DNA from: Candidatus Tectomicrobia bacterium
Lineage (GTDB): Bacteria > UBA8248
Length of the DNA stretch: 64,000 nt
Reading direction: 5' to 3'
NCBI GenBank assembly: GCA_016192135.1
Contig: JACPUR010000016.1
Location: forward strand, 22,651-86,650
Positions 58,166-62,753 of the stretch are shown piece by piece; position 1 is the stretch's first letter, and every line of letters starts with the position of its first letter. Under the pieces are notes generated by a model. The model was given only the letters and a program-made list of their open reading frames with translations. It did no database searches and was not told where the DNA came from. The position numbers and the translations under genes were made by a program.

Positions 58166-58792
58166 ATGGACCTCCTCTCGTCCTTCCTCCTCGCCTACTC
58201 CACCCTCTTCGCCATCGTGGACCCGATCGGCGTCGCCGCCGTCTTCGTGGCCATGACCGAGGCCAATACCCCGGCCGAGCGCCTGCGCATGGCCCGGGCG
58301 GGCTCCCTCACGGCGGGCGGGGTGCTCGCCTTCTTCGCCCTGGGCGGGCGGACCCTCTTCGAGATCATCGGGATCACCTACCCGGCCTTCCAGATCGCGG
58401 GGGGCGTCATTCTCCTCCTGGCCGCGCTGGACATGGTGCGGGGGGAGCGCGTGGCGGTGCGCACGAGCGCCGAGGAGCACCACGCCGCCGTGGCGAAGGC
58501 GGACATCGCCATCACCCCGCTGGCCGTCCCCCTCCTCGCCGGGCCCGGGGCCATCTCGGCCGTCCTGGTCCTGAGCGGGCGGGGCGGCCCGGCCCAGGGC
58601 GCGGTGGTCCTCCTGGCCATCGGGGCCATCACCCTCACCTCCTGGCTGGCCCTGCGCGGGTCCATCCGCCTCGCGCGCTTCCTCGGGACCCTGGGAGCGC
58701 GGGTGCTGGAGCGCCTCGTGGGGCTCCTCCTCACCGCCCTGGCCGTGCAGTTCATCGTGAGCGGAGTGACGGCGGCGATGGGGAGGGGATGA
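58166..58792 (+). CDS. MarC family integral membrane protein (UPF0056)
   Basis: The 208-residue product has six membrane helices with the family patterns FAIVDPIGVAAVFVAMT, ITPLAVPLLAGPGAISAVLV and the C-terminal ALAVQFIVSGV. Function in transport is not established; the original link with antibiotic resistance was withdrawn. It follows mazG by 14 bases. A diverged copy of its last 20 codons occurs at 59226-59296, as part of the duplicated flank of the inserted gene. Confidence 0.9.
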   Translation: MDLLSSFLLAYSTLFAIVDPIGVAAVFVAMTEANTPAERLRMARAGSLTAGGVLAFFALGGRTLFEIIGITYPAFQIAGGVILLLAALDMVRGERVAVRTSAEEHHAAVAKADIAITPLAVPLLAGPGAISAVLVLSGRGGPAQGAVVLLAIGAITLTSWLALRGSIRLARFLGTLGARVLERLVGLLLTALAVQFIVSGVTAAMGRG

Positions 58793-58873
58793 TAAAAGGG
58801 CGCCTGAATTCCAGCCAGAATGGGTCAATTTCGCGCTTGAATTCTTTCCTGGCGAAAATCCGGCCGGGGGAAC

Positions 58874-59001
58874 TATATTAAAAATAACCCGCTGAGGCGG
58901 GCCAAAGACTCCCGCAAGGGAGCAGGCACCGCAAGGAGGCGATAAAGCCCGCGGTGCCTCAGCCATCAACGGCCCCGGAGCCCCGGCCCCGGGGTTTTTT
59001 T
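58874..59001 (+). ncRNA. Candidate structured RNA with terminator between marC and recD2
   Basis: Starting just after a -10-like TATATT (58874-58879), the DNA folds into three clean hairpins. P1 is cccgc/gcggg at 58888-58901. P2 is ctccc/gggag with a GCAA tetraloop at 58909-58922. P3 is a 9-bp stem aggcaccgc/gcggtgcct at 58924-58959 with an inner ggc-gataaa-gcc loop-hairpin. A terminator follows. A GNRA-capped stem beside a stem with a purine-rich inner loop is a layout known from riboswitch aptamers, but conserved cores of the classes I know (GEMM, TPP, SAM, glycine, fluoride, ZTP) do not match. It could be a small RNA or the old leader of recD2. Confidence 0.5.
58973..59001 (+). terminator. 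Rho-independent terminator closing the structured RNA
   Basis: ccccgg (58973-58978 or 58981-58986) can pair with ccgggg at 58989-58994, followed directly by seven T residues (58995-59001). The two alternative 5' arms leave room for a switch with the upstream structure. It is one of the clearest T-tract terminators in the window. Confidence 0.65.
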
Positions 59002-59097
59002 GTATCTTCCCCGCCAATCCAAGACGCGCCCCCGCATGCCGTCTCTCCGGCCCGTGTGGTAGGGTAGGAGCGCCCGCAACGAGAATGAGGCTCTGCC

Positions 59098-59165
59098 CAT
59101 GCCCCGCTTCCCCCGCAGGCCCGCGCCCCCGTCCGGAGGCGCGTCCCAGGCCGGCCTCTTCGGCG
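59098..59165 (+). repeat. Left copy of a 68-bp direct repeat (recD2 start)
   Basis: These 68 bases are identical to 60233-60300, the first codons of intact recD2 plus one base before the ATG. After 59165 the two copies diverge but remain alignable for about 40 bases. The pair brackets the inserted gene and looks like the product of homologous integration. Confidence 0.9.
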
Positions 59166-59296
59166 CGGGGACCTTGACCGGCATAATCGAGCACATCCGC
59201 TTTAGGGCTGGGTACTTTGTGCGCTGGCGGTTCCTTGGTGCCCTGGCCGTCCAGTTCATCGTGAACGGTATAATGTCGTTCCTGGGGAGAATATAA
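59099..59296 (+). pseudogene. Chimeric remnant: recD2 5' end joined to a marC 3' end
   Basis: The open frame of 65 codons starts like RecD2 (MPRFPRRPAPPSGGASQAGL, then a diverged LTGIIEHIRFRAG to about residue 37). It then switches to a MarC C-terminus (ALAVQFIVNGIMSFLGRI, compare ALAVQFIVSGVTAAMGRG in the intact marC). Both pieces after base 59165 differ from the local recD2 and marC and have lower G+C, so they seem to come from a related but foreign genome. A functional protein is unlikely. The native recD2 leader lies directly upstream. Confidence 0.8.
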
Positions 59297-60232
59297 ATGG
59301 CCTGTTATCTATGCCTTGATGAGAAAGCAACAATTAAGGGGGACTTGCGGAAAACCGTGCATTGTCGCAATTGCGGCGACTATGAAATAGGACGCGATTT
59401 AATAGAAGATATTCCAAGCAAACTGAGAACTGACCATGTACGGCGGTATCTGAGTTATAAGGTTCGACAAATGCAGGGTGGAGCGACACGGCCAATTCTT
59501 TACACGGATACGATCAACGCCTTATTAGAAAATATTTCTTATCCTCGTCCACGAGAACAAGCGGATAACTTGGTACGCTGGTTGGGCAACCAGCTTGCTC
59601 AGGTCGATCCTGCAGGATGGCAAGAAATCGGCTGGCCCGAAGGTGGTTCCCTTATAGGTGCGCTCACTAAAGATGGATTCTATCGAATACGCGACCAATT
59701 AATTCATAAGGACAAATTGGTAGAAATTGAACAAGTAGAGAAGAGAAAAATCAGCCTCACCTTTGCAGGATGGGAACGATATGAAGAAATAATGCGCGGA
59801 TATACCGAAGAGCGCCTAGCTTTTATGGCTATGCCTTTTGATGTCCCGGAACTCGAAGACATGTTCAAGAATTGGCTCAAGCCTGCCGTGGACAAGACTG
59901 GGTTTGAACTTCGCGCGGTCAATGAGAAACCCAAAGCGGGACTAATTGACGACCGAATTCTAGTTGAGATTCGGCGTTCGCGTTTTCTTGTCGCCGAGGT
60001 TAGCGACAAGAATTGGAACGTATCTTGGGAGGCGGGATTTGCTGCGGGATTGGGTAAACCTGTCTTTTACCTTTGCGAGAAATCAAAATTTGAAAGTGGC
60101 AAGGGAATGTTTGATACCAGCCATCAACATACAGTTCTATGGACCGCGAACAACTTCGCAGCAGCGATGGAAGAACTCAAGGCGGCCATCCGAAATACTC
60201 TCCCGACCGAAGCCAAAATGGCGGATGGCTAA
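59297..60232 (+). CDS. Zinc-ribbon / nucleoside-deoxyribosyltransferase (TIR-like) protein, probable defence effector
   Basis: A 311-residue protein encoded in DNA visibly richer in A+T than any neighbour. Residues 3-26 form a zinc ribbon (CYLC and CRNC). Residues about 115-168 look like a winged helix (LTKDGFYRIRDQLI, ISLTFAGWERYEEI). Residues 173-285 match the DRT/TIR-like fold: LAFMAMPFDVPELEDMF, AGLIDDRILVEIRRSRFLVA and SWEAGFAAGLGKPVFYLCE. The Glu in WEAGFAAGLGKP is where related enzymes hold the catalytic residue for cleaving N-glycosidic bonds of NAD or nucleotides. Proteins of this design are found in phage-defence settings; that role is inferred. It ends one base before recD2 and may be co-expressed with it. 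Confidence 0.8.
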   Translation: MACYLCLDEKATIKGDLRKTVHCRNCGDYEIGRDLIEDIPSKLRTDHVRRYLSYKVRQMQGGATRPILYTDTINALLENISYPRPREQADNLVRWLGNQLAQVDPAGWQEIGWPEGGSLIGALTKDGFYRIRDQLIHKDKLVEIEQVEKRKISLTFAGWERYEEIMRGYTEERLAFMAMPFDVPELEDMFKNWLKPAVDKTGFELRAVNEKPKAGLIDDRILVEIRRSRFLVAEVSDKNWNVSWEAGFAAGLGKPVFYLCEKSKFESGKGMFDTSHQHTVLWTANNFAAAMEELKAAIRNTLPTEAKMADG

Positions 60233-60300
60233 CATGCCCCGCTTCCCCCGCAGGCCCGCGCCCCCGTCCGGAGGCGCGTCCCAGGCCGGCCTCTTCGGCG
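60233..60300 (+). repeat. Right copy of the 68-bp direct repeat (start of intact recD2)
   Basis: Identical to 59098-59165. Here it opens the complete recD2. The base before its ATG is the single base between the stop of the inserted gene and the recD2 start, so the native recD2 upstream sequence is no longer attached to the intact gene. Confidence 0.9.
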
Positions 60301-62579
60301 TGGGGACGCTCACCGGCACGATCGAGCGCGTCCGCTTCCGGGCCGAGGACACGGGCTACACCGTCCTGGTGATCGTGCCCGACGAGCTGGCCGAGTCCGT
60401 CGTGGCGGTGGGCCACCTGGGGGCGCTCCGCGAGGGGGAGCGGGTGCGCTTCGAGGGGGAGTGGAAGGATCACCCCCGCTACGGGCGTCAGTTCCAGGTG
60501 AGGGTGGCCCAGCCGCTCGCCCCGGCCACGGCCGAGGGGATCGAGAAGTTCCTCGCGGCGGGCCCGGTCAAGCACATCGGGCCCGCCCTGGCCCGGCGCA
60601 TCGTGGAGCGCTTCGGGGAGCGCACGCTCGAGGTCTTCGACCAGGAGCCCCAGCGCCTGCTGGAGATCCCGGGCCTCGGCCAGAAGAAGCTGGCCGAGGC
60701 GCTCGATAGCTGGCGCAGCCACGGCGAGGCGCGGGAGGTGATGCTCTTCCTCCAGCAGAACGGCCTCTCGCTGCACCTGGCCGAGAAGATATTCCGGGCC
60801 TACGGCGCCCAGGCCATCCCCATCCTCCGCGAGAACCCCTACCGGCTCGCGACCGACATCTTCGGCGTGGGCTTCCGCACCGCCGACCGGGTGGCGCGGC
60901 AGATCGGCTTCCCGCAGGACGACCCCGCCCGCTGCGCCGCGGGGGCGCTCTACCTCCTCCAGCAGCTTTCGGAGCGCGACGGGCACGTGTTCGTCCCCTG
61001 GCGGGGGGCGGCCGAGGAGGCGGCGGGGCTCCTGGGGGTCGAGCCGGCCCGGGTGGAGGAGGCGCTGGAGTCGCTCCGGAGGCAGGGGGCGGTGGTGGTG
61101 GAGGAGGCGGCGGGGGAGCGCCGCCTCTACGCCAAGGCCCTCCACGCCTCGGAGTGCGAGGTGGCCCGGCGGCTGGCGGGCCTGCTCAAGACTCCGCGCG
61201 ACGAGGCGCGGCTCGAGTCCGCCCTGCGGGGCCTGGGGGTCTCGGGCGGGAACCTCAGGGAGCGCCTCAGGCGGCTCGCCCAGCGGGCGCTGGAGGGGGG
61301 CCAGGCCACGGGGGACCAGGCCCGGGCCATCGAGGACGCCCTGGCCGAGAAGGCCCTGGTGGTGACCGGGGGCCCGGGGACGGGCAAGACCACCATCGTC
61401 AACGCGGTGACCCGGCTCTACGGCCAGCTCGGCCTCCAGGTCTTGCTCGCCGCCCCCACCGGGCGGGCGGCCAAGCGGCTGGCCGAGGTGACGGGCCACG
61501 AGGCCTCGACCATCCACCGGCTGCTCGAGTACAGCTGGACGCTCGGCGGCTTCGCCCGGAACGCCTCCCAGCCCCTCGCGGCGGACGCGGTGATCATCGA
61601 CGAGGCCTCGATGCTGGACATACACCTCGCGGCGAGCCTCCTGCGCGCGGTGCCGGACATGGCCACCTTCGTCCTGGTGGGGGACGTGGACCAGCTCCCC
61701 TCTGTGGGGCCGGGGAACGTGCTCCGGGACGTGATCGAGTCGGGCGGGGTGCCGGTGGTGCGCCTCAAGGAGGTGTTCCGCCAGGCGAAGGAGAGCCTCA
61801 TCGTCGAGAACGCCCACCGGGTGAACGGGGGGGAGATGCCCCTCGAGGCGCCTCCCGAGCGCGAGGGGGCGGACTTCTTCTTCATCGAGGAGGCGGACCC
61901 GGCCCGCTGCGCCGATCTCATCGTCGAGCTGTGCCGGGAGCGCATCCCCCGGCGCTTCGGCCTCGACCCCATCCAGGACATCCAGGTGCTCGCCCCCATG
62001 CAGCGGGGGGTGCTCGGGGTGCGGAGCCTGAACGAGCGGCTCCAGGAGGCGCTGAACCCGGCCGGCGGGGGGCCGCTCCTCCTCAGCGGGGGGCGCGCCT
62101 TCCGCAAGGGGGACAAGCTCATCCAGATCCGCAACAACTACGACAAGAACGTCTTCAACGGGGATATCGGGGTGGTGGAGCGGGTGGACCCGGCCGAGGG
62201 CGCGCTCTGGGCCGCCTTCGACGGGGAGATCGTCGAGTACACGGCGGGGAGCCTGGACGAGGTGGTCCACGCCTTCGCCGTGACGGTCCACAAGAGCCAG
62301 GGGAGCGAGTACCCGGCGGTGGTGGTGCCGCTGCACACCCAGCACTTCCCCATGCTCCAGCGGAACCTGGTCTACACGGCCCTCACCCGGGCGAGGCGGC
62401 TGGCGGTGTTCGTGGGGACCAAGAAGGCGCTCGCCATCGCCCTCAAGAACGCGCGCGTCAGGCGGCGCTGGAGCCGCCTGGCCGAGCGCCTGCGCTCCGC
62501 GGCGGGGCTGCCCCCGGCGGCCGCCGGGGAACCGCCCGCCGAGCCGATGCCGGACGTGGACGGGGACGAGGCGATCTGA
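60234..62579 (+). CDS. recD2: RecD-like DNA helicase (RecD2 / YrrC)
   Basis: A 5'-3' SF1B helicase of 781 residues, the RecBC-independent form. An OB-like N-terminal part (TLTGTIERVRFRAEDTGYTV) and helix-hairpin-helix region (FGVGFRTADRVARQIGF) precede the motor. The motor has Walker A VVTGGPGTGKTTIVNAV, motif Ia APTGRAAKRLAEVTG, Walker B VIIDEASMLD, motif III VGDVDQLPSVGPG, and motifs V/VI in VHKSQGSEYPAVVVP and LVYTALTRARRL. RecD2 limits replication fork stalling and mutations. In its present setting it must be translated from the transcript of the inserted gene (stop TAA, one base, ATG), with only a weak ribosome site. Confidence 0.96.
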   Translation: MPRFPRRPAPPSGGASQAGLFGVGTLTGTIERVRFRAEDTGYTVLVIVPDELAESVVAVGHLGALREGERVRFEGEWKDHPRYGRQFQVRVAQPLAPATAEGIEKFLAAGPVKHIGPALARRIVERFGERTLEVFDQEPQRLLEIPGLGQKKLAEALDSWRSHGEAREVMLFLQQNGLSLHLAEKIFRAYGAQAIPILRENPYRLATDIFGVGFRTADRVARQIGFPQDDPARCAAGALYLLQQLSERDGHVFVPWRGAAEEAAGLLGVEPARVEEALESLRRQGAVVVEEAAGERRLYAKALHASECEVARRLAGLLKTPRDEARLESALRGLGVSGGNLRERLRRLAQRALEGGQATGDQARAIEDALAEKALVVTGGPGTGKTTIVNAVTRLYGQLGLQVLLAAPTGRAAKRLAEVTGHEASTIHRLLEYSWTLGGFARNASQPLAADAVIIDEASMLDIHLAASLLRAVPDMATFVLVGDVDQLPSVGPGNVLRDVIESGGVPVVRLKEVFRQAKESLIVENAHRVNGGEMPLEAPPEREGADFFFIEEADPARCADLIVELCRERIPRRFGLDPIQDIQVLAPMQRGVLGVRSLNERLQEALNPAGGGPLLLSGGRAFRKGDKLIQIRNNYDKNVFNGDIGVVERVDPAEGALWAAFDGEIVEYTAGSLDEVVHAFAVTVHKSQGSEYPAVVVPLHTQHFPMLQRNLVYTALTRARRLAVFVGTKKALAIALKNARVRRRWSRLAERLRSAAGLPPAAAGEPPAEPMPDVDGDEAI

Positions 62580-62604
62580 AACGGCGTTCGAGACGCCCGA
62601 ATCC

Positions 62605-62632
62605 GTAGGGGCGGTTCGCGAACCGCCCCTAC
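62605..62632. repeat. Perfect 28-bp palindrome (gtaggggcggttcg and complement)
   Basis: The sequence gtaggggcggttcg is followed at once by its exact reverse complement. It lies between the convergent recD2 and pit genes and may stop transcription from both sides. From general knowledge, near-identical gtaggggc palindromes are scattered in many bacterial genomes as REP- or MITE-like elements. Confidence 0.7.
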
Positions 62633-62657
62633 AACGGCCTCGCCCTATTCGTCCGTG

Positions 62658-62679
62658 GGGGCGAGGCATGCCTCGCCCC
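62658..62679. repeat. Perfect 22-bp palindrome (ggggcgaggca and complement)
   Basis: A second perfect palindrome, 25 bases after the first, with the same gggg...cccc borders and the frame t-ggggg...cccct-g. The similar outer parts and different centres (ggttcgcgaacc versus aggcatgcct) suggest two members of one repeat family placed as a pair. Confidence 0.65.
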
Positions 62680-62753
62680 TGCCAGATTGTGTGAGAGGCG
62701 ACCGACCGGCCGCCCCTCGAAACGTGAGCCAGATGGGCTTGCGAAAGCGCGAC

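Follow-up and report, generated by a model that had tools for sequence, protein, structure and literature searches.

In the window, by which we mean the whole 64,000-nucleotide stretch of DNA analysed here, marC and recD2 are separated by a structured intergenic element, a partial second copy of the recD2 start, a marC-like 3′ end and a foreign gene, referred to below as the cargo. The host is an uncultured soil/groundwater Tectomicrobia bacterium whose genome is a draft assembly of 41 contigs. It was compared with a family of 18 genomes and in particular with two congeners, the Candidatus Tectomicrobia MAGs G001 and G002. The order given in a preliminary description of the locus (marC, RNA element, recD2 5′ copy, marC 3′ end, gene, intact recD2) was confirmed with the following coordinates.

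58166..58792, + strand: native marC (208 aa), the left neighbour; Pfam MarC, E=3e-49
58887..59001, + strand: structured intergenic element (fold z = -3.07) with a terminator at its end (58977-58998)
59036..59098, + strand: native recD2 upstream region, now before the partial copy; alignable with the gap between marC and recD2 in both congeners
59098..~59211, + strand: left (partial) recD2 5′ copy; 59098-59165 match 60233-60300 without a difference, and the copy diverges beyond this
59212..59239, + strand: stretch containing the recD2′/marC′ joint, from the alignment
59240..59296, + strand: marC-like 3′ end of donor type (ALAVQFIVNGIMSFLGRI*), 57 bp, from sequence comparison and alignment
59099..59296, + strand: chimeric 65-aa open frame recD2′::marC′, its stop abutting the cargo ATG; no Pfam match
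59297..60232, + strand: cargo gene (311 aa) with a Cys-rich N-terminus, a helical, winged-helix-like middle part and a C-terminal nucleoside-deoxyribosyltransferase/TIR-like domain
60233..60300, + strand: right copy of the 68-bp identical block, the start of intact recD2
60234..62579, + strand: intact recD2 (781 aa); TIGR01448, E=4e-249

Results

The left recD2 copy lies ~306 bp from marC. On entering the cargo gene the G+C content drops from ~0.73 to 0.48, in agreement with the earlier view of an AT-rich foreign gene. The recD2 gene was left intact, with the TAA of the cargo one base upstream of its ATG. On the other side, the chimeric frame opens at the former recD2 start and closes with a TAA touching the ATG of the cargo. 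As the chimeric leader, the cargo and recD2 abut in this way (TAA/ATG and a 1-nt gap), they look translationally coupled, and the insertion appears to have created a three-frame operon in which the cargo would be read together with recD2. Within the left copy, the joint between recD2 and marC can be placed no more exactly than 59212-59239. Neither a transposase or integrase nor terminal inverted repeats occur in the insert, as expected from the proposal of an integrase-free insertion. A transposon or integron reading, examined through the ORFs and repeats of the insert, was rejected for the lack of a recombinase and of terminal inverted repeats, and a search of IMG/VR turned up no viral origin for the recD2 start.

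The two recD2 5′ copies (59098-59211 and 60233-60346) comprise 114 bp, the first 68 of which are identical. In the next 51 columns there are 14 mismatches (27%; p = 2e-5 in a Fisher test for uneven distribution), so that the identical-then-diverged pattern noted in the preliminary description holds to the base pair. When the native recD2 of the window genome is compared with that of G001, 10 of 67 sites plus three gap columns differ across the identical stretch (15%), and 8 of 51 sites (16%) differ in the stretch that follows. Since the congeners differ by 15-16% in both segments, the 68-bp identity is not due to conservation, and the block was thus exchanged, copied or converted. In its diverged part, the left copy has the G001 state against native recD2 at three sites (75, 97 and 106), which is the divergence in the direction of a donor that had been suggested before. 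It also carries about ten private changes, most of them toward A/T. The outer 68 bp of the left copy are recipient-derived, and the inner 46 bp look either donor-like or decayed; judged by these substitutions, the diverged part may come from a more distant donor, result from decay of the copy, or reflect a combination of the two. Over 50 nt, 78% of positions agree between the marC-like piece and native marC.

In G001, the site is empty: marC is followed by 65 bp and an uninterrupted recD2, and there is no second recD2 copy. Such an empty site in a close relative was one of two states that the preliminary description had set out to be looked for; the other, a donor state with the gene between marC and recD2 and no duplication, was found neither in the 18 family genomes nor in genome_contigs. 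In G002, the same point is occupied by another insert. Here, marC and 65 bp are followed by a repeat of the recD2 start that spans 165 bp or more, a 47-N gap, and a cargo consisting of a DNA methyltransferase (N6_N4_Mtase, E = 3e-40) and an ORF without known family, and the ATG of intact recD2 comes directly after this cargo as it does in the window genome. A different cargo at the same point supports the idea of a marC-recD2 site that is used repeatedly. The recD2 genes of G001 and G002 are 91-93% identical, and either is 89% identical to that of the window genome. The cargo gene of the window is absent from G001, G002 and the other genera among the 18 family genomes. As G001 is nearer to G002 than to the window genome and neither has the gene, two independent insertions are the simplest history, and the window and G002 insertions are thus most simply read from these comparisons as independent events at one gene start. 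Within the family, marC could be traced in this genus alone, G001 and G002 included; the family genomes of other genera yielded no marC protein, and their matches to mazG and recD2 lie side by side.

In G001 and G002 the gap after marC measures 65 bp and lacks about 240 bp, the structured element among them. A stretch 76% identical to the element is present in a genome of another genus (G003), and an Rfam search returned no family at gathering score. The element is probably unrelated to the insertion.

The preliminary description had assigned a zinc ribbon and a DRT/TIR-like domain to the cargo protein, and both assignments stand, as a zinc-ribbon-like N-terminus and a predicted fold. The N-terminal CxxC...CxxCG motif, which reads CYLC...CRNCG in the cargo, is found in several relatives. 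At the C-terminus, the match to Pfam nucleoside deoxyribosyltransferase (PF05014) reached 21.2 bits, under the gathering cut-off of 28.8, and the PADLOC match to 'TIR effector' was weak (E=1e-4). In an AlphaFold model (pLDDT 75) built from a 17-sequence alignment that included 16 distant relatives from IMG/VR contigs, the segment 170-306 resembles DNPH1 as well as TIR domains from SPARTA and from plant receptors, with Z scores of 13-15 (maximum 14.9, for DNPH1), an rmsd of ~2.7-3.2 over 110-135 residues and 11-20% sequence identity. Among the relatives of the cargo, D219 is nearly invariant and E245 invariant. The C-terminus is thus predicted to adopt a Rossmann-like nucleoside deoxyribosyltransferase/TIR-like fold with a putative catalytic Asp/Glu pair. 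The modelled fold is thus common to the cargo, to the DNPH1/nucleoside 2′-deoxyribosyltransferase proteins and to the two kinds of TIR domain just named, whereas the Cys-rich and helical N-terminal region is an addition of the cargo.

Searches of genome_contigs, of IMG/VR directly and of phages yielded no close relatives of the cargo; the relatives that were found are all distant, and those in IMG/VR contigs stand alone. There is no partner gene beside the cargo either, and it therefore does not appear to be a SPARTA, Thoeris or CBASS system. The protein would most likely act as an effector that cleaves nucleotides or NAD, probably an N-glycosidase or NADase, for which we infer a role in defence.

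A scan of 2.39 Mb (61% of the genome) for direct repeats of 45 bp or more around lower-GC DNA gave, besides the recD2 locus, at least two insertions of the same shape. At C39:9631-10680, a HigB-like toxin (Gp49, E=1e-21) and an XRE-like antitoxin are enclosed by two identical 78-bp repeats of a glyoxalase-family gene end, beyond which nothing clear is left at the DNA level. At C1:190956-191926, a DUF3105 gene is enclosed by ~70-bp copies of another gene's end that differ by one mismatch, and the outer copy diverges past the near-identical block as at recD2. Candidates that are less convincing or more complicated comprise an epimerase end (C1:6279-10622), the end of a WbqC-like gene (C4:55797-57029) and a mer region (C19:31335-33400). 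Two repeat families were set aside as not being insertions of this form, namely a REP-like one at C1:300483 and a GAF tandem repeat at C14:66219. The near-identical blocks at the three clearer loci are of similar length (68, 70 and 78 bp), three cases being too few to build on. Empty-site comparisons of the HigBA and DUF3105 loci gave no clean picture, as the neighbours differ in G002 and the glyoxalase-family gene is matched by paralogues only. Around low-GC interiors within 5 kb, eight repeats were direct and none inverted. The same 61% of the genome holds 77 low-GC islands as against ~4-5 repeat-flanked cases, so that repeat-bracketed insertion is a minority route and not the main route of gene gain.

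Discussion

The mosaic order of the left copy, the exact abutment of the cargo to recD2, the identical-then-diverged pattern, the occupied site of G002 beside the empty one of G001, the like insertions elsewhere in the genome and the excess of direct over inverted repeats are the basis of the mechanism that we favour with modest confidence, in which a foreign gene was inserted before recD2 by one exchange with a rejoined, circular donor segment marC′-gene-recD2′. The donor would have been a relative in which the cargo gene stood between marC and recD2. The ends of a fragment carrying the marC end, the gene and the recD2 start would have been joined as a circle or through an equivalent joint, possibly by Ku/LigD end joining, and a single recombination of the joined fragment at the recD2 start of the recipient would yield native upstream sequence, the native recD2 start, the inner part of donor recD2, the joint, the donor marC end, the gene and intact recD2. 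A recD2′-marC′ joint of two donor ends is indeed present in the left copy. Moreover, genes for Ku, next to a LigD-polymerase-like one, and for ComEC are present in the genome, and with these both end joining and DNA uptake are possible. The circularity of the segment, the enzymes used and the identity of the donor are inferred from this arrangement. Neither a free circle nor a donor-state genome was found in the 18 family genomes, genome_contigs or IMG/VR.

The preliminary description held that one crossover inside the 68 bp gives exactly this arrangement. This is true of the order. A donor that is 27% diverged over 51 bp is, however, unlikely to have been identical over the adjoining 68 bp, and a further step is therefore needed: the outer block may have become identical through gap repair from the recipient during the event or through later gene conversion between the copies. 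Alternatively, the donor circle may have been excised from a chromosome of the same species. Decay of an unselected copy could explain part of the divergence, and in this respect the A/T-ward private changes speak against the donor model, as does the fact that the left copy of G002 runs into the 47-N gap.

A clearly less probable possibility, although one to be taken seriously, dispenses with the circle. Linear donor DNA taken up by transformation might have paired with one sister chromosome at the recD2 start and become joined to the other at a different place, illegitimately or via a second short homology, with a duplication as the outcome, as in pneumococcal merodiploids or homology-facilitated illegitimate recombination. 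The ComEC and Ku/LigD-like genes suit this route as well, inter-chromatid integration of linear DNA yields duplications in S. pneumoniae (PMC3784515), and the abrupt end of identity after 78 bp in the toxin-antitoxin case fits an illegitimate joint. At recD2, in contrast, the left copy continues in diverged form and shares states with G001, which points to donor DNA past the exchange rather than to a plain duplicate of the recipient. A further reading is an old tandem duplication of an ancestral marC-gene-recD2 segment, in which the first gene copy was lost by exchange with an empty allele, the left remnant decayed and conversion kept the 68 bp. The mainly A/T-ward private changes and the apparently shortened marC-like piece would be accounted for in this way; yet several steps are required, perfect outer identity adjoins 27% divergence, and the gene is missing from G001, G002 and other genera, all of which makes such a history improbable.

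We consider an assembly artefact from mixed strains, one empty and one carrying the gene, to be decidedly unlikely. The window genome is a draft of 41 contigs, G001 and G002 are MAGs, and the N gap of G002 falls exactly at the repeat. The novel recD2′-marC′ joint, on the other hand, would occur in neither strain, the contig is continuous across it, and similar structures are seen in separate assemblies and at other loci. Insertion of a transposon or an integrase-type element at the recD2 start, which might explain the insertion point common to two species, hardly deserves credence, as neither cargo comes with a recombinase and the ends are only long partial gene copies of differing extent.

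Returning to the rejoined donor segment, by its sequence organization the window insertion is an 'insertion with long target duplication', i.e. a well-preserved variant of a described process and not a new kind of element. To judge from the accounts in PMC3031569 and PMC1643837, insertion with a long (variable) target duplication is known for restriction-modification genes (Nobusato et al. 2000; Furuta et al. 2010) and has been reported in Helicobacter and elsewhere, mainly in Helicobacter. In those cases as in ours, a foreign unit lies between long direct copies of host sequence, transposases and integrases are absent, and the insertion is seen against empty sites. The G002 insert itself even contains a DNA methyltransferase. 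The cargo of the window, in contrast, is a single DRT/TIR-like gene, a restriction-modification unit being usual in such insertions and not obligatory. The locus further differs in that two congeners received unlike cargo at one and the same gene start and, as far as the published descriptions in these sources go, in its chimeric left copy composed of an identical part, donor-like recD2 and a donor-like marC end. Merodiploids and homology-facilitated illegitimate recombination in transformation (PMC3784515, PMC3240628) likewise combine one homologous anchor with another joint and involve no mobile element. They concern competent laboratory species and duplications much larger than that of the window, and the accounts given there describe no donor-derived second gene end.

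It is conceivable, albeit speculative, that these bacteria practise recurrent integrase-free capture, in which small foreign genes, for defence or of the toxin-antitoxin type, are bracketed by ~70-bp copies of host gene ends, and the unit excises and re-enters the same gene of relatives as a circle. The end of a core gene would then serve as an attachment site by homology alone.

Many single defence genes sit between core genes without a visible mobile element. At the locus presented here, a likely joint of the DNA that came in has been kept, the site has been used a second time for different cargo, and its empty state is known as well; the three together make gene movement by homology plus end joining testable. 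With it, a phenomenon linked to restriction-modification genes would extend to an uncultured phylum and to cargo other than restriction-modification.

Repeat-flanked segments elsewhere in the genome

In the genome of the window, direct repeats also bracket lower-GC DNA at the following sites:

C39:9631-10680 (L184), HigBA-type toxin-antitoxin pair flanked on both sides by a glyoxalase-family gene's 3′ end in direct repeat
C1:190956-191926 (L083), DUF3105 gene with the duplicated 3′ end of a DUF7482 gene on either side
C1:6279-10622 (L055), duplicated sugar-epimerase 3′ end

The glyoxalase-family copies (78 bp) are identical and the DUF7482 copies (~70 bp) nearly so; as at the recD2 locus, the outer DUF7482 copy diverges past its ~70-bp block. 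The sugar-epimerase copies (283 bp, 89% identity) enclose 3.8 kb of lower-GC DNA that carries sugar genes together with an apparent remnant of a transposase.

The mazG-recD2 region

Window 58887-59001, structured element with terminator between marC and recD2 (fold z = -3.07)
Window 62595-62690, palindromic repeats 3′ of recD2 (GTAGGGGCGGTTCGCGAACCGCCCCTAC and a relative of GAGGCATGCCTC)
Congener G002, C34:3512-3535 (L037), palindrome CCCCAAGCGGCNNGCCGCTTGGGG inside the first codons of intact recD2

The structured element matches no Rfam family at gathering score and is missing from both congeners (G001 and G002), while a genome of another genus holds a counterpart (G003:C75:2296-2410) with 76% identity across 115 bp. 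It is a candidate small RNA of this bacterial family. The palindromes downstream of recD2 are REP-like. The G002 palindrome forms an extra stretch in recD2 that keeps the reading frame, and that genome has five sites of this kind.

Within the family, the order mazG-marC-recD2 (marC at window 58166-58792) occurs only in this genus, so DNA has been added at the boundary between mazG and recD2 on more than one occasion.
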